Of a stretch of 64,000 bases of DNA, positions 6,944-64,000 are shown piece by piece. The stretch is from Methylophilaceae bacterium (GTDB lineage: Bacteria > Pseudomonadota > Gammaproteobacteria > Burkholderiales > Methylophilaceae). Below the pieces are notes generated by a model. The model saw only the letters and a program-made list of their open reading frames with translations, did not search any database and was not told the origin of the DNA. Location: contig JABFRO010000001.1 of assembly GCA_013141125.1 (NCBI GenBank), positions 1,054,001 through 1,118,000 on the forward strand. Direction: 5' to 3'. Position numbers and translations under genes: made by a program. The stretch's first letter is position 1. Each line of letters begins with the position of its first letter.

Positions 6944-6947
6944 ATAT

Positions 6948-41499: not shown

Positions 41500-41837
41500 A
41501 CCGTACTAACCTTTCAAGAGAATTAATGTTGCTTATCACGTGATTTCACCCGCTATTATTTTCACAGTAGCCGTGTGTATAAATAAACCATACTCACTTT
41601 GATACCTGCTTCTTTAACGACTGAATTTTGCTATGACTTGATAGGGGCTAATTGATGGAAGTGAAGGAGAATAGTGGCTCAAATTGAGCCATAATATTAG
41701 ACAAGATATTGATTTTAAATTAATTTATAATAAAAACAGAAAAATAGCTTTACAGTTGTTTACAATAAAGCACCCCGCAGCAAGCGATGGCGAATTGAAC
41801 CCGCAAAGATTAAAAAATTACGTTACTGCAAACCCGC

Positions 41838-41910
41838 GTAGGGTGGCTAAGCCCAGCGCATCCACTGATAGCCGATGAGATGGTGGATGCGCTGGGCTTA
41901 GCCACCCTAC
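41838..41910. repeat. Palindromic repeat, 28-bp arms
   Basis: GTAGGGTGGCTAAGCCCAGC... (41838-41865) and its exact reverse complement (41883-41910) about a 17-base loop. It is the only recognisable element in the 508-base gap 41500-42008. The bases on both sides (aaattacgtta...aaaccc and tgtcatggtcaagttt) match those around the copy at 44728-44760, so the whole spacer is shared between the two receptor gaps. Confidence 0.85.
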
Positions 41911-42008
41911 TGTCATGGTCAAGTTTATGTGGGCAGATTTTCTGCCCACCCGTTTATATCAATTGTCTACGTGGGCAAATAAGAACATTTTGCCCACGCA
42001 ATTTAACT

Positions 42009-44675: not shown

Positions 44676-44727
44676 GATTAATGGCCTTTTGAAAATTTAT
44701 TAAAAAATTACGTTGTTGCAAACCCGT

Positions 44728-44760
44728 GTAGGGTGGATAAGCCCAGCGCATCCACCCTAC
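44728..44760. repeat. Short palindromic repeat between chemoreceptors
   Basis: GTAGGGTGGAT, eleven bases (AAGCCCAGCGC), ATCCACCCTAC: perfect 11-bp arms. A shorter member of the family at 41838, with the same flanks. Confidence 0.85.
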
Positions 44761-44821
44761 TGTCATGATCAAGTTTATGGTGGGCAAATAAGAGCATTTT
44801 GCCCATCCTCACATAGCGGCC

Positions 44822-47800
44822 TTAAAACTCTTCCCAATCGCCATCATTGGTACCGGTTTTTACTGGTGCAATTTTGGCGGCTTTGACAGGTGCTGATTTT
44901 GCAGCAGGTCTATTTGCTTGACTTACTGAACTCCGCATTGAGTTAGGTGCCACGCGACGTTCACCGCTTCGGCCTTGGCTTTCATCTTCCAGCTGAAACA
45001 CACTCACCGCATTCATCAGTTCATCCGCCTGTTCCATCAGCGATTCCGCAGCGGCCGCTGCTTCTTCTACCAGCGCGGTGTTTTGCTGCGTCATGTCGTC
45101 CATCTTCATTACCGCATCATTGACTTGTTCAATGCCGGCACTTTGTTCGCCGGAGGCGGCGGCAATTTCGCTGATGATGTCGGTGACACGGCGGACGGAG
45201 CTGACGATCTCCTGCATGGTGGCTCCGGCGTTTTCTACCTGTTTGGTGCCTTCGGCAGTTTTGCTCACAGAATCGGCGATCAGTTCCTTGATTTCCTTGG
45301 CGGCACTGGCCGAGCGTTGTGCCAGGTTGCGCACTTCTCCGGCGACCACGGCAAAGCCACGACCTTGTTCACCCGCTCTGGCGGCTTCTACCGCCGCATT
45401 GAGAGCGAGGATGTTGGTCTGGAAGGCAATGCCGTCTATGACGGAAATGATGTCTTCGATCTTTTTGGCGCTGGCGTTGATGTCGGCCATGGTGGTGACC
45501 ACTTCCGCCACCACTTCACCGCCTTTGACGGCCACACCGGAAGCGGCGGTGGCCAGCTGGTTGGCTTGGCGGGCGTTGTCAGCGTTTTGTTTGACGGTGG
45601 AAGAGAGTTCTTCCATGCTGGCGGCGGTTTTCTCCAGGCTGGCCGCTTGTTCTTCGGTGCGGCGAGAAAGATCGGCGTTGCCTTCGGCAATTTCGCGGGA
45701 GGCGGTGTTAATGGTTTCTACGGCGCTCTTCACGGTTCCTATCGGGCCTACGATCATTTCCAGCGTTTCGTTCACCCCTTCCACAATCTTGCGGAAATCA
45801 CCCTGATGTTGGCTCGCATCCGCACGTACTGAAACACGGCCTTCATTAGCGGCTTGTGACAGCTGATTCACATCGACCACCAGTGCATTGATGGATTCAA
45901 TACAGGTATTCAGATTGTCTTTGATGGTATTGAAATCACCGTTATAACGATCCGTGATTTTGGCTGGAATATCACCGCTGGCAATACTTTCCAGATTATG
46001 TGCCGCCATATTCAGTGGCGTGATAATCGCATCCAGCGTTTCATTCACCCCTTCAACAATCTTGCGGAAATCACCTTGGTGCTTGCTGGCATCGGCACGC
46101 GTTTCTAACCTGCCATCTACCGCCGCCTGGGAAAGCAAGGCCGCATCCGCTACCAGCGCCTTAATGGCTTCACCACAGGCATTAAGATTGGTTTTGATGA
46201 TATTGAAATCGCCATTGTAATCCTGGGTGATTTCTGCGGGGATTACGCCCTTGGATAAATTGTCCACATAAGCAGCCGCCATATTCAATGGGCCGATAAC
46301 CGCCTCCAACAGGCGATTCATGCCGCTGCTAATCTCGCGTAGAAAACCTTGTGGCAAAGTGGAAGCATCAATGCGTTGTTGCAGATTGCCCGCCACGGTT
46401 TGTTCTATCAATGCGGCTACTTGTCGTTCGGCAATGACCTCCGCCGTACGATTCGTCCACTGCGTCATACGCCCCAGATAACTGCCATTGTCTTCATCGT
46501 AAACCGGATTAAGCAGAAGTTGCAGATGTTGTTCGGCGATAACCGTTTCTATCTGCTTGGGGCCACTCAGCTCCATGACAAAATTGGCTTTATCGCCTTC
46601 ATCTTCCAAATACTGCGCTACCCGGGTGCCTAACATTTTATCCACCGAGAAGCCGGGGTGATGCATGGCGATGCCAATGCTTAAATCCTGAAACAAGGCT
46701 TTGGCCGCACTGTTCATATAAGTGAGCAGATTATCTTCATTGGAAACCGTAATCGCCATGGCCGAGTTATCCAAGGCGGCTTTAATGCGGTTGATGCCAC
46801 TAATGCTTTCCGAATGATCGAAATCAATGCGCGTTTTTAATGCACGGTAAGCATCCATCACGTCCGTCAATTCATCCCTATGGCCGGTACGCAGCACAGA
46901 GGCGTGATCTATCCCTTGCGCAGTTTGCAATAGATAAGTTCTGGCGGAATTTACACGCGGCATGATGGCACCATAGAGCAAACGACCCAATAGCGCGGTG
47001 ATGGCTATGCCTAATAATAGAAAAACAATACCAAGATTTCTATGCAGTTGATAATCAGCTTCCGCATCGGCAAACACCTGCGCAGAAACCTTGAGTTGCA
47101 ACTGCGTCAAAGCATTGATTTTATCGGACAAGGGATCTATCGCCGGATAAAGTTCAGCACTGGCAAACGCTGCCAGCCGGTTGGCATCCTGCGCACGCAA
47201 TATGCTTTGCAGTGCGGCAGTAGCGGCATTGGCCTTGACGAATAAAGGCTCTATATCCGCCACCAGATTTTTTTCTTCCTGCACATGCGCATTGGCGTTA
47301 TACGCTTTCCACTGCTTATCCACTTCTGCCAAAGCACTGGCGACATTGGTCTCCCCCTGTGCCCAACTTAAATTGCCATTGCGCACCTTGTGCGAGGTAT
47401 CCACAATATTCACTGCATACATATCGGCAATGCTTTTCAGCTGTTGCAATGGAATAACACGATCCTGATACAGCTCATGCACCGCTATATTGGTATCTTC
47501 AATGCCCTTGATACCGATATAGCCCAGCGACACCCCCGACACCATGACCACAACAAAAATACTGATAATTCTCGCCTTCAAGGTGAAGTTGCGTTTGATA
47601 CTACGCACTTTTCCTACCATGGCTTGTATGGTGCCCTGCCCCTCACGCAGAGCTTTATGAAAATTTAAAGCGCCTTCAATCTGTTGCCGTGTCGGCTTGC
47701 CACGCACAGAAATATAACCCGCGACCTGGCCTCCTTCACTAACCGGCGTAATGCAGGCCTCCACCCAATAATGGTCACCATTCTTGCAGCGGTTTTTAAC

Positions 47801-48046
47801 AATGCCTATCCACGGTTTGCCGGATTTCACTGTATTCCACAAATCCTCATAAGCCTCGGGCGGCATATCGGGATGGCGCACAATATTATGGTTCTGACCT
47901 ATTAACTCCTCTTCGGTAAAACCGCTGATTTCAATGAATTCACGGTTTACAAAAGTAATACGGCCTTTCAAATCGGTCTTGGAGACAATTTGTGAAGTAT
48001 CTTTCAACTCCACTTCTTTTTGCGTGACTGGCAAATTGATTTTCAT
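44822..48046 (-). CDS. Aer-like methyl-accepting chemotaxis protein (PAS, poly-HAMP)
   Basis: A 1074-residue receptor. The N-terminal PAS domain (about 20-120) is of the Aer type, with [21 protein letters not shown] (in parts) and [21 protein letters not shown], suggesting FAD and redox or energy sensing. A membrane segment (about 153-178), a helical region (about 180-335), a second membrane segment (about 340-360), a second PAS-like domain (about 405-540), tandem HAMP units with repeated [23 protein letters not shown] and the MA domain follow. The end is GDWEEF. About 0.9 kb matches the first receptor almost base for base. Confidence 0.93.
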
Positions 48047-50126: not shown

Positions 50127-52178
50127 TCAAAACTTATAGCTAAACGTCAGACGCGCACTGATGGGTTCTACCGGGTGAAAGTGGGTATCAGCTACTCCGG
50201 TTGCCGCTTCGCCATTCAAACGTGACTCGTAGTAGTAATCAATATCACTGGCTTGGCTGTTGAAAAGATTAAATATATCCAGCGCCAAATTGGCTTTCTG
50301 GTTGAATTTGTATGCCACGCGAGCATAGGCGACGGTGGTTGATTTTGAGCGCACGCTATTGTCTTCTATCAATGGTCTGGGGCCAAAATGGCGCAATTGA
50401 AACGCGGCTGACCATTTGCCAAGATTATTGACGCTAGCGCCAAACGAAGCGACTCGGTCTATAGCACCGGGAATGTAATTACCAGCCGCATCATTTTCAC
50501 TATAGCGCGCATGTGAGGCAGCATAGTCGAAATCAAACAATAGCCAGTCATTGGCAATATAGTGGTTATTCCATTCCACGCCCTGACGTTTGCTGGAGCG
50601 GCTGGCTTCCGTTTCACCGGCATCGCCAACAAATACCAATTCAGAGGCAATATTTAGTTGCCAGAAAGCCAATGAGCTTTGCAATCCCGGCACGATTTCC
50701 GTGCGCAAACCAATTTCGCCACCGTGGGTGGAAACCAGCGGGGTTACCGGCGTTGCAGCGCCGCCACTGGGCAATTGCGTTTGCGTGGTGCCGCGTGCAT
50801 CGTTGCTGTGAAAACCTTTGCCGTAATTAATAAAAAACTCGGTCTTGACCCATGGTCCAAAAATCAGGGAAATCTTGGGCGAAAAAATGCCGTCGTGCGC
50901 GGAGCCTGAATTTCCCGCAATGCTGCTGGCAACATCAAAGCTGTAAGCGTCATATCTCAAACCTGCCACTGTGCGGAACTTTTGCTGCCATTGCATAGTG
51001 TTTTCCGCATAAATACCTGCACTGGCCTCTTTAACGCTATCCTTGCGCACCAGCGATATGCGCTGTCTGGCCACAGTGTTGTACAAGGCAACCGGAGATA
51101 AATCATCGTAACGCACTTGCAGACCGATTTTGTTCTGCATATCCATGCCCGCCAGCGTAGTGAACCAAGTCTGACCAAGATTGAAACCACCCAGCAGGCG
51201 GCGCTCACTCTGATTGAACTGATCGCCATCGACAGGATTATTCAGGAAAAAAGTGAAGTTGCTGTAAAGATCCAGCCGCGATTGCACGGCATAGGCGTTG
51301 AAATCGAACTTGCCGTATTTATTACGCTGATGCATGGCGTAGGATAGGCTGTAGCGCGAAGCAACACCGCCATCGCTGCTATCCAAAGAGCCGAATCGGC
51401 CAATCTGCCCGGATTGCACGGTACGCAAGGGAATCTGGTCGGTAGCATCCCAATAGTTGCGATAAACCATGGCTGTCAGGTTATAACCCGCATTGGAGTC
51501 GCCGCTACTGTAACGTAAAACACCGCTGTATTTTTTAACTTTTTCGGCATTTTCCCAAGGTCCGTCGTTACGGTTGATTTCCAGACCATATAACAGCGTG
51601 CCATCTGCCAAATTGAAGGAATCCGCCAGCACCCCGCGCTGATATCCACGATTACCCAGTGAGAGTGAAGCAATACCTTGGGGCAACTGGTTAGCCAGGC
51701 GAATATGCGCCGCGCCGGCAGAAGAAAAATCACCTTCATCGGCAAAATAGGGGCCTTTTTTGTAATCAATGCGGTTCACCAACTCCGGGATTAAAAAATT
51801 CAGATCGGTATAGCCTTGACCATGGGCATTGGTACGCATGTTGAGCGGAATATCGTCCACAAAAGTGGCAAAATCCGTACCATGATCCAGATTGAAGCCG
51901 CGCAGATAATACTGATTGGCCTTACCATCGCCGCTGTGCTGAGAAACAATCATCCCCGGCACAAATTCCAGCAGCTCTCCGGGGCGTAAGGTAGGCCGGT
52001 TCTGAATGAGACTGGCAGTCACCGTGCCCTGGCTTGCGGCATCGGAGGTACCCACCGCATTATCATAATGGCCGGTAATGGTAATAGGCTCCAATTGCAA
52101 ATTATCCGCCGCTTGGCTGAAACATGGGACAGATAAACTGATGATTAAAAAACCAATGCATTTGTTACAGAAAACCAT
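50127..52178 (-). CDS. TonB-dependent outer membrane receptor
   Basis: A 683-residue receptor from the ATG at 52178, which has GGGGAG six bases before it; an upstream in-frame start at 52241 would precede the signal peptide by 21 residues and is rejected. Residues 1-23 are a signal peptide (ending FSQAADN). The plug domain (about 30-160) has ELLEFVPGMIVSQHSGDGKANQYYLRGFN (in parts), and the barrel ends in the outer-membrane signature SYKF. The ligand is unknown; no iron-responsive box is recognised upstream. It stands alone on the minus strand between the tRNA island and fdx. Confidence 0.87.
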   Translation of the reverse strand: MVFCNKCIGFLIISLSVPCFSQAADNLQLEPITITGHYDNAVGTSDAASQGTVTASLIQNRPTLRPGELLEFVPGMIVSQHSGDGKANQYYLRGFNLDHGTDFATFVDDIPLNMRTNAHGQGYTDLNFLIPELVNRIDYKKGPYFADEGDFSSAGAAHIRLANQLPQGIASLSLGNRGYQRGVLADSFNLADGTLLYGLEINRNDGPWENAEKVKKYSGVLRYSSGDSNAGYNLTAMVYRNYWDATDQIPLRTVQSGQIGRFGSLDSSDGGVASRYSLSYAMHQRNKYGKFDFNAYAVQSRLDLYSNFTFFLNNPVDGDQFNQSERRLLGGFNLGQTWFTTLAGMDMQNKIGLQVRYDDLSPVALYNTVARQRISLVRKDSVKEASAGIYAENTMQWQQKFRTVAGLRYDAYSFDVASSIAGNSGSAHDGIFSPKISLIFGPWVKTEFFINYGKGFHSNDARGTTQTQLPSGGAATPVTPLVSTHGGEIGLRTEIVPGLQSSLAFWQLNIASELVFVGDAGETEASRSSKRQGVEWNNHYIANDWLLFDFDYAASHARYSENDAAGNYIPGAIDRVASFGASVNNLGKWSAAFQLRHFGPRPLIEDNSVRSKSTTVAYARVAYKFNQKANLALDIFNLFNSQASDIDYYYESRLNGEAATGVADTHFHPVEPISARLTFSYKF

Positions 52179-52325
52179 TACGTACTCCCCAATTAGGTGT
52201 TTAAGGCATATATTATGATAAATTATAAATTCTTCATACATATGGGCGATTAAAGGCCTTTGGCGAATATTAATATATGCGTCAAATTGCGTATTTATAG
52301 CGGTGGGGATTTAGCCGGGGCGGGA

Positions 52326-52664
52326 TTACTCGTGTTCGCGTGCGTGATTGAGGCTATAACGTGGCAACTCGATGGTGAGTGGGGTTGTCCCCACCCTGAT
52401 TTGACAGGACAGACGGGAAACCGGGGTTAAGCCCCAAGCTTTGTCGAGTTGATCTTCTTCTTCATCTTCGGCTGGCGACAGCGAAGCAAAGCCTTCACGC
52501 ACGATCACATGGCAGGTGCTGCAAGCGCTGACACCATCACAAGCGTGTTCAATTTCCACGCCGCCGGCTAGCAGCGCATCACAAAGCACTTTGCCGGGTT
52601 TGATTTCCAGCGCCAGACCTTCGGGGCAAGTTTCGGGATGTGGAAGCAATATCACTCGAGTCAT
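52326..52664 (-). CDS. fdx: ISC [2Fe-2S] ferredoxin
   Basis: A 112-residue ferredoxin of the isc operon, which donates electrons for cluster assembly on IscU. The cluster ligands are in CDGVSACSTC (C-x5-C-x2-C) and the downstream SCQI cysteine. The N-terminal ILLPHPETCPEG is the Isc-type lead. It starts ten bases after hscA and is the last isc gene; no iscX follows. Confidence 0.95.
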   Translation of the reverse strand: MTRVILLPHPETCPEGLALEIKPGKVLCDALLAGGVEIEHACDGVSACSTCHVIVREGFASLSPAEDEEEDQLDKAWGLTPVSRLSCQIRVGTTPLTIELPRYSLNHAREHE

Positions 52665-52674
52665 AATTTTTTAC

Positions 52675-54552
52675 TCATACGGCAAGGCTTTCTATTTGTT
52701 TACCTGTCAGGGCGCTACGGATGGAAGCGTCCATGCGGCGACCAGCGTAGATAGTGGTCGCTGCATTCAGCGCTTCGCTGGACTGGCGTATAGAATCCAG
52801 ACTGTTGGCATCTCCCATAATCAGTATTTCTGCCAGTTCGTAGATTTTTGTCCAGATCAAATCCCACTCCGCTTTATCCAGTAATTCATGTCCATCCTCG
52901 GCCATTGCCGCTTCAGTAGCATCCAGCAGGCGGCGGGCATCCACCTGTGCTTCACGCAAGGCACGCATATGCTTATCATGTTCGGCATTGGCAATACCGG
53001 CCGTCAACATGCCGCTGATCTCGCTATCGGTCAGGCCATAGGATGGTTTTACTGTGATATGGGATTCATGCCCTGTGGTTTGCTCACGCGCGGAAACCGA
53101 TAACAAACCATCGGCATCGACTTGAAATGTCACGCGAATGCGCGCACCACCGGCCACCATGGGAGGTATGCCTCTTAACTCAAAGCTGGCCAGCGAGCGA
53201 CATTCCGAAACCAGTTCGCGTTCGCCCTGTACCACGTGAAAACTCATGGCAGTCTGTCCGTCCTTGAATGTAGTGAAATCCTGCGCGCGTGCACTCGGGA
53301 TAGTGGCGTTGCGCGGAATGATTTTTTCACTCAAGCCGCCCATGGTTTCTATGCCCAATGAGAGCGGGATAACATCCAGCAGCAGCAGCTCGTCGCCATT
53401 ACCGTTACCCGCCAAGGCATTGGCCTGGATGGCAGCGCCCAGCGCGACTACTTTATCCGGGTCGAGATTGGTGAGTGGTTCGCGGAAAAAGAATTCGGTC
53501 ACGGCCAGACGTAAATGCGGCATACGTGTCGCACCGCCCACCAGCACTACGCCCTGTACATCTTCCACCTGCAAACTGGCATCACGCAAGGCACGGCGCA
53601 CTGGGCTAAAGGTTTTAGCCAACAACGGCTTGGTCAGTTCAACAAAAGTTTCGCGCCCCAGAATGGCATGTACCGGCGTGCCATTCGACAATTTACAGCT
53701 AATCTCGGTAGCCGCAATATCGGTTAGCTGTTCTTTGGCGATACGTACTTCGGTCAATAATAAGCGCATGTCTTCTGGCGCTAATGCTGACAAATTCAGT
53801 AGTTGTGTCAACCAGTCATAGATGGCGCGGTCGAAATCATCGCCTCCGAGAGCAGAATCGCCACTGGTGGCCAGCACTTCAAACACACCGCGCGTCAAAC
53901 GTAGAATGGAAAAATCGAAAGTACCACCGCCCAGATCGTAGACGCAGTAAATACCTTCCGAGGCATTATCCAGGCCATAGGCAATGGCGGCGGCGGTTGG
54001 CTCGTTCAACAGGCGCAATACAGAAAGCCCGGCCAGACGCGCGGCATCCTTGGTGGCCTGGCGCTGTGCATCGTCAAAATAGGCCGGCACGGTAATCACC
54101 GCGCCTGACAGCTCGCCACCCAGACTTTCCTCAGCACGCAGACGCAGCACTTTCAGGATTTCAGCGGAGACCTCAATCGGGCTAAGTTCACCTGCTATTG
54201 TTTTCAGCTTGACCATGCCTGGTGCTTCAATAAACTGATACGGCAAATTATCTACATCGGCAATATCTGCCAGCCCACGCCCCATAAAGCGTTTGACGGA
54301 GACGATGGTATTGCGCGGGTCTTTCGCCGCATCATCACGCGCTGTCCAGCCGACTTCCACCTCGCTCCCATTTTTGTAATGCACTACCGATGGCAATAAA
54401 GCGCGACCTGCATGATCGGGCAATACTTCGGCGGTGCCACTGCGCACTGAGGCCACCAGTGAATGTGTGGTACCAAGGTCTATGCCCACTGCCAATCTGT
54501 GCTGGTGCGGGACGGCGCTTTGGCCGGGTTCTGCAATTTGGAGGAGTGCCAT
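52675..54552 (-). CDS. hscA: Fe-S chaperone HscA (Hsp70)
   Basis: Specialised Hsp70 that releases clusters from IscU, 625 residues. Phosphate loops GIDLGTTHS and YDLGGGTFD are intact; the peptide-binding half follows [11 protein letters not shown]. The target motif LPPVK is present in the IscU here (residues 99-103). It is separated from hscB by a 329-base gap (54553-54881) instead of the usual tight spacing. Confidence 0.96.
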
Positions 54553-54814
54553 TAGCTATCCAATCGGGCTATTTACCTAGTTGATGGAATTGGAAATTAC
54601 TAAAGAACACTTCTATTAATCCAATTATCGTCGTTATACTGCGTTGCTCAAAAAAATTATTAGTTACGACATAACCAAAAGGTTAGTCTCCACTGAAACG
54701 GCGTTTTCCTTACATATCAAACATATGCCGCGTCATAATTTTTCGCAAGCGCCTTGTCTAACTTAGCAACTTGAATTAATAGAAGCGCCCTAAATACTAT
54801 TGCTTTAGGTAATT

Positions 54815-54842
54815 GGTGAATGCGCTACGCTTATCCACCCTG
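54815..54842. repeat. Palindromic repeat in the hscB-hscA gap
   Basis: GGTGAATGCGCTACGCTTATCCACCCTG, read in two halves as GGTGAATGCGC and GCTTATCCACC, a weaker member of the GTAGGGTGG family. Apart from it the gap 54553-54881 shows no gene or strong terminator. Confidence 0.68.
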
Positions 54843-54881
54843 CAATTAAATGGGTCTGTTGGTACTTTTTCGTTCTCTGCG

Positions 54882-55409
54882 CTATTTGTCTAGTTGATCT
54901 AGTGCGTCATCAATCTCGCTGCGCAACTTTTGATAAAAAAACAATTCGTTGAGCCGTTGCTCTGCCAGTTGAAAATTAGCTTCATCATCCAGCGCGCTGG
55001 CCAAATCTTTTTCCTGAATGGAAACCTTGTGTTTCAAACGCTTTGACAATGCATCCAAAGCTACGACATCACCGGCATGACGTGCATCCTCAATGGATTC
55101 ACGCCATTCCATCTGTGCCATCAGAAAACCCGGAGTAAGGGTTTTAGCTTCCAAACCAAGCACTCCAGCCAAATCAATCAGGCATCGTGCCCGAGTAACC
55201 GGGTTACGCAGTGTTCTATAAGCATCATTCACCTGTGTCGATTTCTGCAAAGCTACACGTTGTTCCGCTTCGCTATTGCCAGCATGACGATCTGGATGCA
55301 GCTCGCTCTGCAATTGCCGAAAAGACTGCTCCAGACTGTGCATATCTATCGTGAATCGTGGTGCCAAGCCGAATAGTTCAAAGTAGTTAGTGTCGCTCAG
55401 GGTATTCAT
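54882..55409 (-). CDS. hscB: Fe-S co-chaperone HscB
   Basis: J-type co-chaperone that brings IscU to HscA; 175 residues with a J domain in which HPD lies at residues 38-40 (SELHPDRHAG) and a C-terminal three-helix IscU-binding domain. Starts 77 bases after iscA. Confidence 0.95.
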   Translation of the reverse strand: MNTLSDTNYFELFGLAPRFTIDMHSLEQSFRQLQSELHPDRHAGNSEAEQRVALQKSTQVNDAYRTLRNPVTRARCLIDLAGVLGLEAKTLTPGFLMAQMEWRESIEDARHAGDVVALDALSKRLKHKVSIQEKDLASALDDEANFQLAEQRLNELFFYQKLRSEIDDALDQLDK

Positions 55410-55486
55410 GCATAACTCCCGTTGAATATTTATCAGCCGGTAAGATTTAAAAGAAGTCGGCTGCTAATCGGCAATGACGCGCAAAA

Positions 55487-55810
55487 TCAGACTGTAAAGC
55501 TTTCACCGCAACCACAATTTGCGGCGGCGTTCGGATTGTTAAACTTAAAACCTTCGTTCAAACCCTCTTTGGCGTAATCCAGCTCGGTGCCGTCCAGGTA
55601 GACCAAACTAGTTGGGTCAATCAGCACTTTTACGCCATTGCTGTCAAAGATTAAATCTTCGGGTGCCGCTTCATCGACAAATTCAATGGTGTATGCCATG
55701 CCCGAACAACCGGAGGTTTTAACACCCAGGCGCAGGCCTATGCCTTTACCACGGCTATCGAGGAATTTCTGTACGCGTGTGGCAGCGGTAGTCGTCAAGG
55801 TAACAGCCAT
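55487..55810 (-). CDS. iscA: A-type Fe-S carrier IscA
   Basis: A 107-residue A-type carrier. The three cluster ligands C35, C99 and C101 match E. coli exactly (GCSG and the final CGCG). The start is the ATG at 55810 with GGGGAGA eight bases upstream; a longer frame (to 55918) would overlap erpA. Confidence 0.95.
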
Positions 55811-55823
55811 GTGAGTGTCTCCC

Positions 55824-56186
55824 CTATACCGAAAAGGAACTGCCGCAACCACAGGTGGCTGTGGCATTGGGATTGGTGATAACAAAACGCGCACCTTCGA
55901 GACCTTCCTGATAATCAATAGTTGCGCCTACCAGATATTGATAACTCATGGCATCGACCAGCAAGGTGACCCCTTCTTTTTCCAGCGCCAGATCATCTTC
56001 GGCCACCTGGTCATCAAACGCAAAGCTATATTGAAAACCGGAACAACCACCACCGGTGACATAGACACGTAGCTTGAGTGCGGGATCGCCCTCCTCTGTA
56101 ATCATCTCGCTCACCTTGCTTGCAGCATTGGTAGTGAAAACAATCGGGGCTTCAACAGCAGCTTCCATAACAGCGGTATCAGACAT
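55824..56186 (-). CDS. erpA: Fe-S insertion protein ErpA
   Basis: A 120-residue A-type carrier, closer to ErpA than to Isc[26 protein letters not shown] (in parts), the [23 protein letters not shown] stretch and the end CGCGSSFSV. In most proteobacteria erpA stands alone; here it lies between iscU and iscA in the isc operon. Confidence 0.92.
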
Positions 56187-56210
56187 TTGAAATACTCCTT
56201 AATAATCAAA

Positions 56211-56630
56211 TTAGGCGGCAGATTTACAGGCGTTATAGCCTTCTGCTTCCATGAGGTTTTTGCTTCGATAATCAGTAATTGCCGCACGGATCGCATCTTC
56301 AGCCAACACCGAACAGTGAATTTTTACCGGTGGTAACGCCAGCTCTTCAGCAATGTGCGTATTTTTAATGTCCATGGCCTGATCCAGCGTTTTGCCCTTG
56401 AGCATTTCGGTCACCAGTGAAGATGAAGCTATCGCCGAACCGCAGCCATAAGTCTTGAACTTGGCATCTTCAATCACACCAGCCTCATTCACCTTTATCT
56501 GTAACTTCATTACATCGCCGCAAGCCGGTGCACCCACCATACCCGTGCCTACATCTGAATCTTCTGCCTGAAAAGAACCCACATTGCGCGGATTTTCGTA
56601 GTGATCCAATACTTTATCGCTATAAGCCAT
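56211..56630 (-). CDS. iscU: Fe-S scaffold IscU
   Basis: Scaffold on which clusters are built, 139 residues. Ligand cysteines C37, C63 and C106 are in standard positions, and LPPVK (99-103) is the HscA-binding motif. The C-terminus has a further cysteine in YNACKSAA. Confidence 0.96.
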   Translation of the reverse strand: MAYSDKVLDHYENPRNVGSFQAEDSDVGTGMVGAPACGDVMKLQIKVNEAGVIEDAKFKTYGCGSAIASSSLVTEMLKGKTLDQAMDIKNTHIAEELALPPVKIHCSVLAEDAIRAAITDYRSKNLMEAEGYNACKSAA

Positions 56631-56646
56631 AATAATTCTCCTATTG

Positions 56647-57894
56647 TTAAGCCGCTATTTTTTCGGGATCGCGGTGTGACTCCGACCCATGTGCCCACTG
56701 CACAGAAGCTATATCTATCCCCGCCTTGAACATATCCCACAACGGCGAGAGTTCGCGCAATTGCCCCACCTTGTCCTTAATAAGCTTGATGGCATAATCC
56801 ACATCGGCTTCTGTGGTATAGCGACCAATTGAAAAACGGATGGATGAATGTGCCAACTCGTCTTCACGCCCAATGGCGCGTAACACATAAGAGGGCTCCA
56901 GACTGGACGAAGTGCACGCGGAACCACTGGAAACCGCGATGCCCTTGACCGCCATCATCAGCGATTCACCCTCCACATAATTAAAGCTGATGTTGAGATT
57001 ATGCGGCACACGCTGTTGCAGATCGCCATTAAGATAGGCTTCTTCCATATCCGCCATTCCTGCCCAAAGCCGGTCACGCAACGCCTTGATACGTGCGTTT
57101 TCACTCGCCATTTCAGTCTTGGCTATATGAAAAGCCTCGCCCATACCGACGATCTGATGCACGGCCAGCGTACCGGAACGAAAACCACGCTCGTGACCCC
57201 CGCCGTGCATCTGCGCTTCCAGACGCACCCGTGGTTTGCGGCTGACATACAAGGCACCTATGCCTTTGGGGCCATACGTCTTGTGGGCAGAAAAGCTCAT
57301 CAGATCCACCGGCAGTTTTTCCAGATCAATGTCTACTTTGCCTGTGGCCTGCGCCGCATCCACATGAAAAATAATGCCTTTCTCGCGGCAGAGATTACCG
57401 ATGCTGGCTATATCCTGAATCACACCAATTTCATTATTCACCAGCATCACCGAAATCAGCACCGTATCCGGCTGTATAGCCGCCTTGAGTGCGTCAATAT
57501 CAATCAAACCATTTTCCAGCGGCGAAAGATAAGTCGCTGTAAAACCTTCCCGCTCCAGTTCACGAAAGGTATCCAACACGGCTTTATGCTCGGTTTTGAT
57601 AGTAATCATATGCTTGCCGTTAGCCGCATAGAATCGCGCCGCGCCTTTAATGGCAAGATTGTTGGATTCGGTTGCCCCAGAAGTCCAGACGATTTCCTTG
57701 GGATCACAATTGACCAGCGTCGCCACTTGCTCACGCGCTGTATCCACCGCTTTTTCTGCATCCCAGCCATAAGCATGGCTACGCGAGGCAGGATTGCCAT
57801 AAATTTCAGTTAAGTAAGGAATCATTTTTTCGGCTACGCGCGGGTCTACCGGAGTAGTCGCTGAGTAATCCAGATAAATAGGCAAGTGAGTCAT
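56647..57894 (-). CDS. iscS: Cysteine desulfurase IscS
   Basis: PLP enzyme that takes sulphur from cysteine, 415 residues. The PLP lysine is in [12 protein letters not shown], the catalytic cysteine in [18 protein letters not shown]. The C-terminus is about ten residues longer than in E. coli (ends HRDPEKIAA). First gene of the isc operon, transcribed away from nifA; no iscR precedes it. Its control region holds sigma-54, IHF and NifA sites. It probably serves both housekeeping and nitrogenase cluster assembly. Confidence 0.96.
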
Positions 57895-57933
57895 GGGGGC
57901 ACGTCCTGTAAGAATGCTAGTTGTAGCTAGACT

Positions 57934-57949
57934 AGCAATCCCTATGCCA
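57934..57949 (-). promoter_or_regulatory. Sigma-54 (-24/-12) promoter of the isc operon
   Basis: Minus-strand TGGCATAGGGATTGCT: GG and GC are spaced exactly as in TGGCAC-N5-TTGC[A/T], with one mismatch (T for C at position 6). It lies 40 bases upstream of the iscS start. Confidence 0.85.
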
Positions 57950-57965
57950 TAAACATTTAAATCTG

Positions 57966-57978
57966 TAATGCTTTGATA
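57966..57978 (-). promoter_or_regulatory. IHF site between NifA enhancer and isc promoter
   Basis: TATCAAAGCATTA on the minus strand fits WATCAA-N4-TTR at every position. It lies between the enhancer (58034-58049) and the -24 element (57949), in an AT-rich stretch, as for bending in NifA-sigma-54 promoters. Confidence 0.75.
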
Positions 57979-58007
57979 TTAATAATAATAATTTATTTAT
58001 GCTAAAT

Positions 58008-58034
58008 AATTGCGACAAAATCATTGTCGCAATT
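58008..58034. promoter_or_regulatory. Perfect inverted repeat beside the NifA enhancer
   Basis: AATTGCGACA, seven bases, TGTCGCAATT. It shares its last base with the enhancer. The regulator is unknown; it does not fit the Fnr or NtrC consensus. Confidence 0.6.
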
Positions 58035-58049
58035 GTCGGGTTGATTACA
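58034..58049. promoter_or_regulatory. NifA upstream activator sequence (isc operon)
   Basis: TGT-CGGGTTGATT-ACA, an exact TGT-N10-ACA. It is about 119 bases upstream of the predicted isc start. It is also about 285 bases upstream of the nifA start. Confidence 0.75.
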
Positions 58050-58300
58050 TGACAATACAAGACTGAAAACCAAGCCGGATTTAAGTTTTGGCTACCTGAC
58101 AGGCTCTGAACATATTTAATAATACATAAAGTGCTAGAAAACTTATTACGAAAGGCAAGATGTAAGAAATTCATTTATAAATAAAAGCTTATCCATAGCC
58201 GTGTTTGCATTTTCTACCAGTCATCCCAACAACTACCTTGCTATACTTTGTAATAAGCTTAACTCATTAAGCACGCGACCTGAGCTTGCAAACCAACTGG

Positions 58301-58316
58301 TGGCATACACATTGCT
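58301..58316 (+). promoter_or_regulatory. Sigma-54 promoter of nifA
   Basis: TGGCATACACATTGCT has the same -24/-12 spacing as the isc element; nifA begins 39 bases later. A TG-C-TATACT element at 58239-58247 could be an extra extended -10 sigma-70 promoter. No exact NifA enhancer lies in the 250 bases before it, other than the shared site at 58034. Confidence 0.78.
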
Positions 58317-58354
58317 TGTTAAATAACACCATAACGAACTACGGGACGTAAAGT

Positions 58355-59980
58355 ATGCTCTCTGCATCGGGTTCCAGTCGCGTTGCACTGGTCACCATCT
58401 ATGAAATCAGCAAAATTCTCAGCTCCTCACTAGAGCTACACAAGACCTTGCGGCAAGTGCTAAACGTCATTGCAGTGCATTTGGACATGCAACGCGGCAT
58501 GGTCTGTTTGCGCACTGATTCAGAAAATCTCCATATGATTGCCAACATTGGCTACAGCAGTGAAGAAGCCTTGCGCGGTCATTTTCATGCAGGTGAAGGC
58601 GTTACCGGTCGCATTTTTCAGACGGGTATTCCTGCTGTGGTTCCCAATGTGGCGCATGAACCTCTATTTTTAAACCGTACTGGTGCATTTAAGCTGGTAG
58701 AAGATCAGGTGATTTCATTTCTGGGGGTGCCGATCAAGGTTGGCCGAGAGTGCATAGGAGTGCTGACTTTTGAGCGCGAAACCAATGACAAATGGCAAGG
58801 TTTTCAGGATGATCTGCAACTGTTGACCATGGTCGCCAATCTAATAGGTCAAGCCACACGCTTACATCAGCAAGTCACTAACGACCGTGAACAGCTGATG
58901 CAGGAAAAATCCAGATTGCAAAAGGAATTAGGCGGAAAATATCGCCTTGATAATGTGATTGGCAGCTCCAAGCGTATGCAAGAAGTATTCGCCGATGTGC
59001 ATATGGCAGCACCAGGCAAAAGTACGATACTTTTGCGCGGCGAATCCGGCACAGGTAAGGAAGTCATTGCCAAATCCATCCACTTCTTATCCTCACGCAA
59101 GGATAAGCCGTTTATTAAGGTCAACTGTGCAGCTTTAACCGAAAGCCTGCTGGAATCCGAGTTATTCGGTCATGAAAAGGGCGCATTTACCGGTGCACTA
59201 CAAGAACGAAAAGGTCGTTTTGAACAAGCCCATGGCGGTACACTATTTCTGGATGAGGTTGGCGATGTAACACCAGCCTTTCAGGTAAAGCTGTTGCGGG
59301 TATTGCAAGAGCGTGAATTTGAGCGCGTGGGCGGCAATAGAACCATCAAGGTGGATGTGCGCCTGATCTGTGCCACCAATCGTGATCTGGAAGAAGCCGT
59401 TAAAAATGGTGAGTTTCGCGCGGATCTATATTACCGCATCAATGTTATTTCAGTTTTTCTGCCGCCATTACGTGAACGGCGGGATGATATTCCATTGTTG
59501 GTAGAGAGCATTCTGGCTCGATTCAACCGAGAAAACAGTGCAAAAATCGGCATTACGCCGGAGGCAATGCATGTACTCAGTAATTGCCATTGGCCGGGCA
59601 ATGTGCGCGAGCTGGAAAACTGCGTGGAGCGCTTCGCCACCATGTCACGCAGCAATCTTATCCGTGAAGTAGATATTCCCTGTCAAACCAACCAGTGCCT
59701 CTCTTCCACACTTTGGAAGTATCAGCCCACGGGCGGTGTCATTCCGATTGCACCGATGGCTCCCGCCCCGTTGCACAGTGCACCTTCCAGCCTTGGTCAT
59801 GACGAAGATGCAGAAGAAGAAAATGATGATGATGAAGTTTTCACCGAGCGCGAACAACTGATCAGCGCCATGGAAAAAAGCGGTTGGGTACAAGCCAAGG
59901 CGGCACGCTTGCTTAATCTCACCCCGCGTCAGATGGGCTATGCGTTGAGAAAATACAACATTGAAGTGAAGCGGTTTTAA
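58355..59980 (+). CDS. nifA: Nitrogen fixation activator NifA
   Basis: Sigma-54 activator of nif genes, 541 residues. An N-terminal GAF domain (about 24-165), a central AAA+ domain with Walker [15 protein letters not shown] at 276-281 and FLDEVGD, and a C-terminal HTH ([20 protein letters not shown]). Between them C411, C423, C443 and C448 form C-x11-C-x19-C-x4-C, the motif that makes rhizobial-type NifA directly oxygen-sensitive, so no NifL is needed. The region 455-510 is acidic and serine-rich. Divergent from the isc operon. Confidence 0.96.
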
Positions 59981-60108
59981 GATTTAAATTGCATCCTTTC
60001 ACCTTGGCTTCAAACTCCACAATAGTCTGTGACAAAGCAAGCTGCATTGCATTATGCAAAAGCCGTGATGCATGGAATGCAACTTATAAATTTTTTCGTC
60101 TCAAACGC

Positions 60109-60154
60109 TGTTCATTTCGCTACAAATACGGCTCCGATTGTCGGAATCGCTACA
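60109..60154. promoter_or_regulatory. Two NifA enhancer sites of nifB
   Basis: TGT-TCATTTCGCT-ACA (60109-60124) and TGT-CGGAATCGCT-ACA (60139-60154), exact matches 30 bases apart, i.e. on about the same face of the helix. Centres are about 132 and 102 bases before the predicted nifB start. Confidence 0.83.
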
Positions 60155-60182
60155 AGCCAACCATACCCCCAACTATAGATTT

Positions 60183-60195
60183 AACCAATTGTTTA
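60183..60195 (+). promoter_or_regulatory. Possible IHF site of nifB
   Basis: AACCAATTGTTTA fits WATCAA-N4-TTR with one mismatch (C for T). It is between the enhancers and the -24 element. Confidence 0.5.
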
Positions 60196-60222
60196 TTAAC
60201 ACAAAATAAATAAACATTAAAA

Positions 60223-60238
60223 TGGCACGCGTCTTGCA
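60223..60238 (+). promoter_or_regulatory. Sigma-54 promoter of nifB
   Basis: TGGCACGCGTCTTGCA is a full match to TGGCACG-N4-TTGCA. nifB starts 37 bases later. Confidence 0.93.
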
Positions 60239-60274
60239 ACGCTCCAGATACAAATCTCACCAAGGATCAATATC

Positions 60275-61843
60275 ATGGAAGCTATATTTGAAAACGCTAC
60301 GCCAAACTTAAGCCGATTGCGGCCTATCACTGGCATCAAGGTTGAAATTACTGGGCAGCCTGCTGCTTCCGGCTGTGAAACTGAAGGCGGCGAAGGCAAA
60401 GCGAGCTGCGGCACGTCGGACGGGCCGGATGATATGTCACCGGAAGTATGGGAGAAGGTCAAGAATCATCCCTGCTATTCGGAAGAAGCGCATCACCACT
60501 ATGCGCGTATGCATGTTGCGGTAGCTCCGGCTTGCAATATTCAATGCAATTACTGCAACCGTAAATACGACTGCTCCAATGAATCACGCCCCGGTGTAGT
60601 TTCACAAAAACTGACACCCGATCAAGCGGTGAAGAAAGTGATTGCCGTGGCCAGTGAAATTCCGCAAATGACCGTGCTTGGCATCGCCGGCCCCGGCGAT
60701 GCGCTGGCCAGCCCGGACAAAACCTTTGAGACATTTCGCCAGTTGCAGGAACAAGCACCGGACATCAAGTTATGTCTATCCACCAATGGCTTGATGCTGC
60801 CGGATTATGTAGATGAAATTGCCAAATATAACGTTGACCACGTCACCATTACCATCAACATGATTGATGCCGAAGTGGGCGAAAAAATCTATCCATGGAT
60901 TTTCTACAACCACAAGCGCTATTACGGTCGTGAAGCGGCACAGATTCTAACTGACCGCCAAATGCTGGGGCTGGAAATGCTGACGGCGCGCGGGATTTTA
61001 ACCAAAATCAACTCCGTGTTAATCCCCGGTGTTAACGATAAACACTTGTATGAAGTCAATCGCGCGGTTAAATCACGCGGCGCTTTTCTACATAACATCA
61101 TGCCGCTGATTTCCGAAGCCGAGCATGGCACGGTATATGGCCTGACCGGCCAACGCGGCCCTTCGGCGCAGGAATTAAAAGATGTGCAGGATGCGTGTAT
61201 GGGCGGGGCAAATTTAATGCGCCATTGCCGCCAATGCCGTGCCGATGCAGTGGGCTTGCTGGGTGAAGACCGCAGCGATGAATTTACACTGGATCAAATA
61301 GAGCAAATGGATGTGGTGTATGACCTGGAAAAACGCCGTGCTTATCAAGAAACCGTTGAGGCGGAACGGCAAGCGCAACACAACGCCAAGCATGATGCGC
61401 TGGCTGCCCATGCTGGTGCGGATGACGGCATGAAAGTGCTGGTAGCAGTTGCCACCACTGGCGGCGGCAAGGTCAATGAACACTTTGGTCACGCCACCGA
61501 GTTCCAAATTTTCGAATTAACGGCGGCCTCGGCCATGTTCGTCGGTCATAGGCGGGTGGATCTGTATTGTCAGGGCGGTGAAGGCGCGGAAGAGTTACTA
61601 CCTTCTGTGGTTACAGCTATCAATGATTGCCATGCGGTATTGGTCGCCAAAATTGGTGCTTGTCCGCGTGATGAGCTGAAAGCGGCCGGTATTGAACCGG
61701 TGGATGCTTATGCCCATGAGTTCATTGAAAAAGCTGCATTGACCTGGTTTGCAGATTACCGCAGCCGCGTGGCTTCTGGCGAAACTTTCCATATACAGCG
61801 CGGCGATGCTTCCATCCGCCAAGGGGCTTTTATGGCGGCATGA
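60275..61843 (+). CDS. nifB: Nitrogenase cofactor biosynthesis protein NifB
   Basis: Radical-SAM enzyme that fuses [4Fe-4S] units into NifB-co, the core of the nitrogenase cofactor; 522 residues. The SAM cluster motif is ACNIQCNYCN (CxxxCxxC), preceded by the HHHYARMHVAVAP-type segment. A cysteine pair later (HCRQCRADAVG) is also conserved. The C-terminal NifX/NafY-like domain (from about 390) has NEHFGHATEFQIFEL. Ends near a palindromic repeat that precedes the ferredoxin gene. Confidence 0.97.
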   Translation: MEAIFENATPNLSRLRPITGIKVEITGQPAASGCETEGGEGKASCGTSDGPDDMSPEVWEKVKNHPCYSEEAHHHYARMHVAVAPACNIQCNYCNRKYDCSNESRPGVVSQKLTPDQAVKKVIAVASEIPQMTVLGIAGPGDALASPDKTFETFRQLQEQAPDIKLCLSTNGLMLPDYVDEIAKYNVDHVTITINMIDAEVGEKIYPWIFYNHKRYYGREAAQILTDRQMLGLEMLTARGILTKINSVLIPGVNDKHLYEVNRAVKSRGAFLHNIMPLISEAEHGTVYGLTGQRGPSAQELKDVQDACMGGANLMRHCRQCRADAVGLLGEDRSDEFTLDQIEQMDVVYDLEKRRAYQETVEAERQAQHNAKHDALAAHAGADDGMKVLVAVATTGGGKVNEHFGHATEFQIFELTAASAMFVGHRRVDLYCQGGEGAEELLPSVVTAINDCHAVLVAKIGACPRDELKAAGIEPVDAYAHEFIEKAALTWFADYRSRVASGETFHIQRGDASIRQGAFMAA

Positions 61844-61850
61844 TAATGAT

Positions 61851-61932
61851 GTAGGTCGGATGAGCGCAGCGCTATCCGACACAGCTGCCATCTATTATTA
61901 ATGTCGGATAACGCTGCGCTCATCCGACCTAC
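61851..61932. repeat. Palindromic repeat between nifB and the ferredoxin gene
   Basis: GTAGGTCGGATGAGCGCAGC... (61851-61881) and its reverse complement (61902-61932), 31-bp arms with one mismatch, loop 20. A variant of the GTAGGGTGG family (GTAGGTCGG). Could weaken read-through or stabilise nifB mRNA. Confidence 0.85.
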
Positions 61933-61969
61933 ACGCTACAAATTACTATTTTTTAACAGGAGAAACACC

Positions 61970-62191
61970 ATGGCTTACAAAATCGTTGGTTCCCAATGTA
62001 CCGGCTGTTCGGCTTGCGAGCCGGAATGTCCGAATGACGCTATTTATGAAAAGAACGGCGTATTTTTTATCAAGCCGGACAAATGCACCGAGTGCATTGG
62101 GCACTTTGACGAAGCGCAATGCGTTGCCGCTTGTCCAGTAGATCTAACCTGCATTATTGATACTGCTTATCCGCGTTACCAAGCCGCATAA
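61970..62191 (+). CDS. fdxN: 2[4Fe-4S] ferredoxin, nif-associated
   Basis: A 73-residue ferredoxin. [12 protein letters not shown] (CxxCxxCxxxC) and [17 protein letters not shown] (C-x2-C-x8-C-x3-C) are the two cluster motifs, of the FdxN type found after nifB. The ATG at 61970 has AGGAG seven bases before it; an upstream ATG at 61901 falls inside the palindrome and is rejected. Likely an electron donor to NifB or nitrogenase. Confidence 0.9.
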
Positions 62192-62245
62192 ACCTACATT
62201 AAGGAGATTGAAATTACTAAAAATCCATTTATATATTTAGACCGC

Positions 62246-62275
62246 AGGGTGGACAAGCGCAGCCGCATTCACCCT
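62246..62275. repeat. Short palindromic repeat between ferredoxin and A-type protein
   Basis: AGGGTGGACAAG...GCATTCACCCT, weak arms. Related to 44728. Confidence 0.68.
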
Positions 62276-62339
62276 AAAGTTAAATGCGTATATTTTTAGC
62301 TTTCATCTCCCCTAACCTCAAGCTGTACAAGGAAAAATT

Positions 62340-62756
62340 ATGGAACTGACAATTACCCCCAAGGCTGAAAAATTCATAGCGCGCATGCTCCGCTTTAACG
62401 GCGGCACGCCAGAACATGGCTTTCGTTTGTGTGTTAGCCCGGGCGGCTGCTCAGGCTTAAGTTCAGAGTTCACTGTGGAAGTCGCGCCACTACAAGGCGA
62501 TGCCATTGTGTTAGCCAGCGGTCTGCGGCTATTTTTGCCGGCTGAATCACGTATTTTGCTGGAAGGTGCCACCATTGATTTCAAGGATACGCCCATGGAA
62601 TCCGGCCTCACCTTTATCACACAACAAAGTGCTGGCGGCAGCTGCGGCAGTGGCAGCGGGGGAAGTTGCAGCAGCAGTAGCGGCGATGGTCATAGCCATG
62701 GCGAACATGCCGGCCAGTCTACAATCAGTCTTGACAGCATTCAGCGTAAGTACTGA
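62340..62756 (+). CDS. Nif-linked A-type Fe-S protein with Cys/Gly/Ser/His-rich tail
   Basis: A 138-residue A-type (HesB/IscA-like) protein in the nifB operon. The core has GFRLCVSPGGCSGL (C31, C37), the C37 matching the first ligand. The usual CGCG end is replaced by a flexible tail with C102 and C110 (C-x7-C) in Gly/Ser repeats, followed by GDGHSHGEHAG (H118, H120, H123). The change in ligand spacing and the His cluster suggest a different metal or cluster handling. Possibly supplies clusters to NifB. Confidence 0.83.
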   Translation: MELTITPKAEKFIARMLRFNGGTPEHGFRLCVSPGGCSGLSSEFTVEVAPLQGDAIVLASGLRLFLPAESRILLEGATIDFKDTPMESGLTFITQQSAGGSCGSGSGGSCSSSSGDGHSHGEHAGQSTISLDSIQRKY

Positions 62757-62772
62757 TTACTAGTTAGCCATC

Positions 62773-63291
62773 ATGCCAAATTCCATCATGATAGAAGAGG
62801 AAAATGTCTGGTTTGCCTCTCGCTACCACAGCTTGCCTACGGCGGCGGAAGAACAGCTCAAATTCGCCAGCTTATCCTACGCCAACAGTGCTAAAGCTGA
62901 AATGCATCTGGCATTGGCTAAAGCAATTGCTCCGGAAAATGCCGTAGTCATTGTTGGTGAGTATCGCTATTTCTTTTACAAGGGGCGGCTGAACGAGGCG
63001 CTGGTCGTGGCCAAAGACTGCTTGACAGCCGTCGCCAAAGAGCTGGGCTTACCCGCACATTGGCGTATGGTGGAGCCACACCATGCGGATTTCAAAGGTG
63101 ATGAACCCGCTCACCGCTTCTATCTGTTTTGCCTGAAAGCCTACGCCTATTTATTGTTGCGCCTAAACCGCCTAGATGAAGGTCGCGTAGCAGCCAACAA
63201 GCTGTTGCACCTGGATCCAGCCAATAAAATTGGTGGCCAGGTATTGCTGGATGTGTTGGAACGCATGGGTCGGGATGATTATGATGATTGA
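62773..63291 (+). CDS. Nif-cluster TPR-like helical protein
   Basis: A 172-residue, all-helical protein with TPR-like units (EMHLALAKAIAPENAVVIVGEYRYFFYKGRLNEALVVA in parts, and LLRLNRLDEGRVAANKLLHLDP). No cysteine cluster or membrane segment. Proteins of this kind sit between the A-type protein and the LRV protein in nif regions; the function is not known to me. Overlaps the next gene by 11 bases. Confidence 0.7.
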   Translation: MPNSIMIEEENVWFASRYHSLPTAAEEQLKFASLSYANSAKAEMHLALAKAIAPENAVVIVGEYRYFFYKGRLNEALVVAKDCLTAVAKELGLPAHWRMVEPHHADFKGDEPAHRFYLFCLKAYAYLLLRLNRLDEGRVAANKLLHLDPANKIGGQVLLDVLERMGRDDYDD

Positions 63292-64000
63292 GACCGACAT
63301 CCCCGCGCTTGATTGGCAAGGTTTGGCCATAGACTGCTCCAGTTGCGCGCATGTTGACAGGCTGGCTTTGGGGACTTGCGGGCTACTTCGCTCCTGCGTG
63401 CATGATCGCTACGCCAAACGTATTGAACGATTTTTTGCCACTAACCCCAGCCTTGCAGTTGACTATATCGCACACCCTTATTTTGAAGTGCGTTCGTTGA
63501 CGGCAAAGTATTTAGACGTATTTCACTTGAATCGACTAATGAGCGATGCCGATGAAACGGTACGTGCCAGTGTTGCACTCAGGTTGCCGCCTAAATTATT
63601 AACAAAATTGATTCATGATCCTGATCGTGAAGTACGCATACGCGTGGCCTTGCGTATGGAAGTCAATGACTTAAATACAATGTTGCACGACGCGGACTAT
63701 TACGTGCGCTTGATGGTGGCGCGTCGCATTGCCCCCAGTTTGTTATTTCATCTGGTGCATGATGCCGATGCCACCGTCAGACGTGAAGTTGCCGCAAAAA
63801 TTGGAGTCGAGTGGCTCACCATGCTGGCCAATGACAGCGAAGCGGAAGTGCGGCTGGTGGCGATAGGCAGAATTTCTTCTGGTCTGTTGCCGCCATTCCG
63901 ACATGACACCGATTGGCGTGTAAGGATGGAAGTCGCCCAGCGTGTGCCTGTTGAGTTTCTTGCAGATTTAATCAACGATGAAGATGAAATCGTAGCCGCC
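63281..64000 (+). CDS. LRV Fe-S protein of the nif region, cut by window end
   Basis: The frame starts at the ATG at 63281 and is open to the window edge (240 codons). The N-terminus has C19, C22, C33 and C39, matching the LRV_FeS4 cluster domain, followed by tandem leucine-rich-variant (LRV) repeats of about 24 residues, e.g. LMSDADETVRASVALRLPPKLLTKLIHDPDREVRIRVALRM (read in parts). These proteins are recurrent nif-region members of unknown reaction. The end is not seen. Confidence 0.87.
   Translation, partial: MMIETDIPALDWQGLAIDCSSCAHVDRLALGTCGLLRSCVHDRYAKRIERFFATNPSLAVDYIAHPYFEVRSLTAKYLDVFHLNRLMSDADETVRASVALRLPPKLLTKLIHDPDREVRIRVALRMEVNDLNTMLHDADYYVRLMVARRIAPSLLFHLVHDADATVRREVAAKIGVEWLTMLANDSEAEVRLVAIGRISSGLLPPFRHDTDWRVRMEVAQRVPVEFLADLINDEDEIVAA

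Follow-up and report, generated by a model that had tools for sequence, protein, structure and literature searches.

The isc–nifA locus and its control region

The window analyzed here, a 64,000-nucleotide stretch of DNA from a Methylophilaceae bacterium, carries a set of ISC genes on the minus strand and, divergent from them, nifA and nifB on the plus strand:

52326 to 52664, minus strand: fdx, ISC-type [2Fe-2S] ferredoxin (TIGR02007, 153 bits, above cut-off)
52675 to 54552, minus strand: hscA (TIGR01991, 866 bits, above cut-off)
54882 to 55409, minus strand: hscB (TIGR00714, 106 bits, above cut-off)
55487 to 55810, minus strand: iscA (TIGR02011, 178 bits, above cut-off; internal ATG at 55810 used, the ORF being listed from a TTG at 55918)
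55824 to 56186, minus strand: erpA-like A-type carrier (NF010147 ErpA, 190 bits, above cut-off)
56211 to 56630, minus strand: iscU (TIGR01999, 226 bits, above cut-off)
56647 to 57894, minus strand: iscS, nif-linked copy (TIGR02006, 721 bits, above cut-off)
58355 to 59980, plus strand: nifA, divergent from isc (TIGR01817, 733 bits, above cut-off)
60223 to 60238, plus strand: predicted sigma-54 promoter of nifB, with UAS at 60109 to 60124 and 60139 to 60154
60275 to 61843, plus strand: nifB, named by reading the sequence without a family search (its matches adjoin nifA in relatives)

The ISC set is complete: for IscS, IscU, IscA, HscB, HscA, and Fdx alike, one or more like-named models scored above their curated cut-offs. 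Intergenic gaps in the operon are short except for an unusually long one of 329 bp between hscB and hscA (54553 to 54881), in which we found one weak sigma-70-like site (54651 to 54624) and neither a terminator-like site nor a recognized gene. The head of the operon is not occupied by iscR, a regulatory and not a biochemical feature of ISC systems; nifA lies upstream instead. The gap between iscS and nifA contains the following elements:

57895 to 58354: iscS–nifA gap, 460 bp, between the iscS ATG at 57894 (minus) and the nifA ATG at 58355 (plus)
57934 to 57949, minus strand: predicted -24/-12 (sigma-54) promoter of the nif-linked isc operon, TGGCATAGGGATTGCT, 0 mismatches to TGGCAYRNNNNTTGCW
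57966 to 57978, minus strand: IHF-consensus site between the isc promoter and the UAS, TATCAAAGCATTA, exact match to WATCAANNNNTTR
58008 to 58034, no strand assigned: perfect 11-bp inverted repeat, AATTGCGACAA-N5-TTGTCGCAATT, adjoining the UAS
58034 to 58049, no strand assigned: predicted NifA UAS, TGT-N10-ACA, TGTCGGGTTGATTACA, exact, 84 bp upstream of the isc promoter
58301 to 58316, plus strand: second exact -24/-12 (sigma-54) element, TGGCATACACATTGCT, 38 nt before nifA

Here TGGCAYRNNNNTTGCW is the sigma-54 -24/-12 consensus. The 84-bp distance of the UAS agrees with the ∼80 to 150 bp typical of NifA/sigma-54-dependent nif promoters. The original prediction had named the UAS, the IHF site, and the isc-side -24/-12 element, and all three were recovered at its coordinates as exact matches; its inventory of the gap was otherwise incomplete, missing the second sigma-54 element at 58301 to 58316 and the inverted repeat at 58008 to 58034. 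The predicted isc transcript would start at 57923, with the iscS ATG at 57894 ∼29 nt downstream. When the 460-bp gap was Markov-shuffled 20,000 times, TGT-N10-ACA arose in 3,278 shuffles (16%), an exact sigma-54 element in the isc orientation in 13, a sigma-54 element (≤2 mismatches) with a UAS at the right distance in 30, and the full triad of sigma-54 element, IHF site, and UAS in none. An exact IHF match would fall in the isc UAS–promoter spacer with a chance expectation of ∼0.03.

Other candidate signals in the gap were few. A consensus scan found no sigma-70-like site on the isc strand and one such match on the nifA strand. When the gap was scored against consensus boxes, the closest matches had 4 mismatches for NtrC, 2 for FNR, 5 for Fur, 9 for IscR type 1, and 6 for IscR type 2; the scan thus found no NtrC-like site below 4 mismatches and no IscR box below 6. 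Rfam returned no RNA at the gathering threshold in the window from 52000 to 64000. Among 252 loci compared, the core pattern of the inverted repeat was confined to loci of the same place; the repeat could be a RegA-like redox-regulator box or a pair of outward-facing NifA half-sites.

On the nifA side, a GG-N10-GC element was also found at the nifA start in the four other NifA-bearing members of the window's family, with 1 mismatch in G054 and G006 and 2 in G014 and G025 (in G014, the element overlaps the start of the listed nifA ORF). The only exact UAS in the gap lies ∼250 bp from the nifA-side promoter. From these motifs, nifA is likely to be sigma-54 dependent itself, with NtrC, NifA (autoregulation), or both as candidate activators.

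A second isc operon and the search for NifU

The genome (3.2 Mb in 4 contigs) contains a second isc operon ∼115 to 120 kb away on the same contig, consisting of iscR, a NifS-like desulfurase gene, iscS, iscU, iscA, hscB, and hscA; the window's isc copy is therefore an extra operon. The IscR of the second operon scored 200 bits, just under the 208-bit TIGR02010 cut-off. Upstream of the operon, a sigma-70-like promoter is overlapped by a box that departs from the IscR type-1 consensus at 2 of 25 positions. This iscR-linked operon presumably covers housekeeping. The two operons hold the same genes in nearly the same order, with 44 to 81% identity over the five pairs compared (IscS, 78%; IscU, 81%; IscA, 77%; HscA, 66%; HscB, 44%), whereas the window operon lacks iscR, has a sigma-54 element and UAS instead, and includes the erpA-like gene. 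Thus, the locus that had been described as "the isc operon," lacking IscR, is indeed an isc operon without iscR, but it is not the only one, and the genome does encode IscR within a separate housekeeping operon.

NifU was not found in the genome: PF01106 gave no matches, PF01592 matched the two IscU proteins only, and the best TIGR02000 match fell below the cut-off. A NifS-like gene, however, starts 1.1 kb past the end of the window (its protein fits TIGR03402 best, at 456 bits, and falls short of the 531-bit cut-off of that family). The suggestion that the operon takes over from nifU and nifS is supported for NifU, both by its absence here and by its failure to co-occur with this type of operon in other genomes (see below); as to NifS, a NifS-like protein is present, and iscS may be partly redundant. 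Directly 5′ of the NifS-like gene is a small ORF (L096:6748-7098) with no NCBIfam match at 1e-10, and sequences resembling it by eye precede nifS in L152 and L156. The second NifS-like desulfurase gene, between iscR and iscS of the housekeeping operon (L098:10075-11220), is found in the same order in several relatives.

Exact sigma-54 elements number 28 genome-wide (11 forward and 17 reverse), compared to 2 + 1 for the reversed pattern. Nineteen of the 28 sites were inspected, and some of them precede nifH, nifE, and fixAB (recognized by sequence) elsewhere on the same contig. A sigma-54 element with a UAS at 70 to 100 bp occurs 6 times in the genome, against 0 for the reversed-pattern control, and three of the six are isc, nifH, and nifB; a UAS is also present upstream of the fixAB promoter. 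A longer UAS consensus, guessed from nifH, nifB, and fixAB and rejected, gave no excess over chance (4 sites at ≤1 mismatch versus 2.5 expected). The nifB site alone matched it without mismatch, and the isc UAS did not fit it.

Recurrence among NifA-bearing genomes

We then compared IscS upstream regions among relatives. In a sample of 399 genomes of the order, 46, this one included, had NifA at an E value of ≤1e-185; four more from the window's family brought the set to 50 NifA-bearing genomes, all chosen by NifA match (G083, whose partial NifA match exceeded the family cut-off but lay outside the 1e-185 limit, was left out). These yielded 60 IscS copies at E ≤ 1e-175 in 41 genomes, 58 of them from other genomes and 2 from this one. 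We scored a copy as positive if a sigma-54 element (≤2 mismatches) lay within 130 bp of IscS and a UAS 50 to 150 bp further upstream. This pair was present before 19 of the 60 copies, versus 0.013 expected from Markov shuffles across the 50 NifA-bearing genomes, and the 19 genomes span 8 families. Where a genome has two IscS copies, the pair stands at exactly one of them in 18 of 19 cases; the exception is G316, whose second IscS is preceded by just a weak promoter, with the UAS lacking. Genomes with one IscS carry the pair in 1 of 22 cases (G088). A recognized iscR lies upstream of 24 of the 60 copies, none of which has the pair (0/24), and for 17 copies neither a recognized iscR nor the pair was seen. 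Spacing between UAS and promoter is 66 to 88 bp across the 19 positive copies, and five of these spacers, that of the window among them, contain an exact IHF site (0.33 expected).

These data strongly support the proposed NifA/IHF/sigma-54 control of the window operon, combining exact elements with recurrence and an internal control in the iscR-linked copies. Conservation in relatives holds for the sigma-54 element and UAS, with the exact IHF site kept in just the 5 spacers. The original prediction had also called a dedicated NifA-driven isc operon lacking IscR unusual; the arrangement is not unique, being found in 19 of the 50 order genomes and in 4 of the 32 examined outside the order.

The isc and nifA genes are divergent in eight order genomes, seven by gene neighbors and G105 by coordinates. 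Where ORFs overlapped, our ORF picking retained the longest one, and genes in GC-rich genomes were lost (nifA was missed in L018 and L202), so counts based on gene neighbors are too low. A NifA scan of genome contigs returned 80 mostly distant loci, with an isc, hsc, erpA, or nifS match in 2 of the 80 (L018 and L072, both hscA). In G088, the sole IscS at threshold in a 96%-complete genome is the copy with the sigma-54 element and UAS (L223; G088:C256:11774-20973); a housekeeping ISC may be absent from this assembly or replaced by SUF. Nine of the 50 NifA-bearing genomes have no IscS at threshold and may use SUF.

Outside the order, 37 of 369 genomes of the class besides this one had NifA at E ≤ 1e-140, and IscS was searched for in 32 of the 37, five being omitted because they scored under the NifA cut-off. 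The search returned 24 IscS copies in 23 genomes, and 4 of the 24 (in G580, G694, G705, and G594) are preceded by a sigma-54 element and a UAS at similar distances. By coordinates, isc is divergent to nifA in G705 and G594. It is also divergent to nifA in G657, where UAS matches are present but the -12 element lacks GC. In all 23 positive copies from the two samples, the SGSACT loop of IscS is intact and an LPPVKxHCS motif follows within 2.5 kb; since the other 61 copies mostly do so too (SGSACT in 60, downstream LPPVKxHCS in 58), this indicates just that the extra copies have not decayed.

NifU (TIGR02000) exceeded its cut-off in 7 of the 50 order genomes, comprising 0 of the 19 with the sigma-54/UAS pair and 7 of the 31 others (one-sided hypergeometric P ∼ 0.026, calculated by hand and uncorrected for relatedness). 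Five of the seven NifU genomes belong to one family, and with relatedness considered the link between the operon and NifU absence is weak. Neither NifU nor a NifA-type isc operon was found in 24 of the 50 genomes, among them G006 from the window's family, indicating that NifA-bearing genomes do not strictly need a dedicated system.

A tree built from the 60 IscS copies groups those that are nif-linked in the window's family (G000, G014, G025, and G054) in one clade with 100/100 support, apart from the housekeeping copies of the same family. The nif-linked label requires 6 changes on the tree, compared to 17 in shuffles. A single clade for all rows so labeled was not rejected (P-AU = 0.155; 20 rows instead of 19, because the weak copy of G316 was labeled nif-linked). 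Given these two results, the nif-linked copies may go back to a single early origin followed by losses or may have been recruited several times.

Proposed role and alternatives

We consider it very probable, from the motifs and their recurrence, that this second isc operon is controlled by NifA and sigma-54. Under low fixed nitrogen and low oxygen, NifA would bind TGT-N10-ACA at 58034 to 58049, IHF would bend the 84-bp spacer, and NifA would activate RpoN-RNA polymerase at 57934 to 57949, inducing a predicted iscS-iscU-erpA-iscA-hscB-hscA-fdx transcript. Its products would supply iron-sulfur clusters for NifH and for FeMo-co maturation, the operon standing in for NifU, probably together with the NifS-like desulfurase encoded past the window end, while the separate IscR-controlled isc operon would serve housekeeping. 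Our best reading of the comparative data is that the operon is dedicated to nitrogenase maturation, doing the job of NifU, and that such operons recur in the 8 families; that it replaces NifU here we hold to be somewhat favored.

Two alternatives concern the control region. If the motifs were chance matches, the operon would be constitutive; the gap is AT-rich and a consensus scan easily misses sigma-70-like sites, but this explanation is hardly credible given that no gap shuffle contained the triad and that the pair recurs far above expectation while avoiding the iscR-linked copies. Alternatively, isc could depend on sigma-54 while owing its activation mainly to an enhancer-binding protein other than NifA (e.g., NtrC), the UAS being fortuitous or there for nifA. 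With two sigma-54 elements and one UAS in the gap, the UAS could serve nifA; moreover, a perfect inverted repeat adjoins it, and TGT-N10-ACA alone is common in shuffles. Nevertheless, the 19 order genomes keep the UAS at 66 to 88 bp from the isc promoter and the four outside keep it at similar distances, it is kept also where isc does not adjoin nifA, and the gap scan found no close NtrC-like site, making this explanation improbable.

A third alternative accepts the same NifA/sigma-54 control and differs from our preferred reading solely in where the clusters go: the operon would provide an extra dose of ISC for the general Fe-S demand of N2 fixation (respiration and electron-transfer proteins). 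It fits a complete, ordinary ISC set whose IscS and IscU are so near the housekeeping proteins, as well as the 24 genomes that have neither NifU nor such an operon. However, the operon does not overlap with NifU in its distribution, and the nif-linked IscS proteins of the window's family form a fully supported clade of their own, so that we regard the extra-dose explanation as rather unlikely, though clearly less so than the other two.

NifU is usually regarded as the scaffold for nitrogenase clusters, and the NIF system (NifU/NifS) is under NifA control. In Azotobacter vinelandii, that system provides a nitrogenase-dedicated cysteine desulfurase and scaffold (NifS and NifU), as described in two reviews (PMC8593673, PMC2682760). 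The proposed operon resembles it in having a dedicated desulfurase and scaffold; however, the scaffold here is IscU, accompanied by HscBA, Fdx, and two A-type carriers, with no match to a three-domain NifU. A third class of A-type carriers has been described with nif genes around them (PMC2682760, in part). In Herbaspirillum seropedicae, hsc, hes, and fdx genes belong to operons that depend on NifA and sigma-54, but the excerpted text names nifU and nifS there and describes neither a full isc operon nor a divergent isc-nifA pair (PMC3093359). The isc-like genes AFE0672-78 of Acidithiobacillus ferrooxidans, which adjoin the gene of a sigma-54-dependent regulator, are thought to assemble the nitrogenase cluster; these are, however, linked to hydrogenase and fermentation genes, the gene named nifA (AFE1527) lies in another cluster, and promoter anatomy is not described in the accessible sections (PMC2621215). 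A second account, as far as its available text goes, discusses nifA of this species without isc genes (PMC2607301). On the acid-mine-drainage fosmid DX-1A-14, hscA and erpA lie between nifA and nifB with a sigma-54 site before erpA, and nifS is present, apparently without nifU; iscS and iscU, unlike here, are not mentioned in that report (PMC3912193). The main text of the Azoarcus BH72 NifA transcriptome, as far as available, includes no hsc, erpA, or nifU, and its one isc-word refers to Azotobacter IscR (PMC3916325). Our literature search, in which subscription journals were thinly covered and many sources were available in part, found no description of a full NifA-driven isc operon, so one may be published. 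The biochemical pieces are known, the regulatory recruitment and its breadth apparently less so.

With 43 of the 50 NifA-bearing order genomes lacking a match over the NifU cut-off, a second full ISC under the nif regulator offers a specific explanation, open to experiment, for a sizable share of them. If the preferred reading is true, HscBA and Fdx would act in nitrogenase maturation. The operon would then also be an alternative part for transferring nitrogen fixation into ISC-using hosts, mitochondria included. For the broader proposition, that duplicated complete ISC operons, with their chaperones and ferredoxin, have joined the NifA/sigma-54 regulon, perhaps repeatedly, to take the place of NifU among proteobacterial diazotrophs and constitute a distinct widespread system, we see the case as evenly balanced. 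Under this proposition, the IscU/HscBA/ErpA route would be a chaperone-driven delivery of clusters to nitrogenase that is absent from the classical NIF system.

Other parts of the window were noted in passing. ORFs at 4228 to 7493 resemble tetrahydromethanopterin-pathway genes, hinting at a methylotroph. Two overlapping ORFs in different frames (32946 to 35193) look like the halves of a Lon-like protease, perhaps split by a frameshift. Three large neighboring ORFs (38488 to 48046) have, by eye, near-identical chemotaxis-receptor-like C-terminal halves and are probably duplications.
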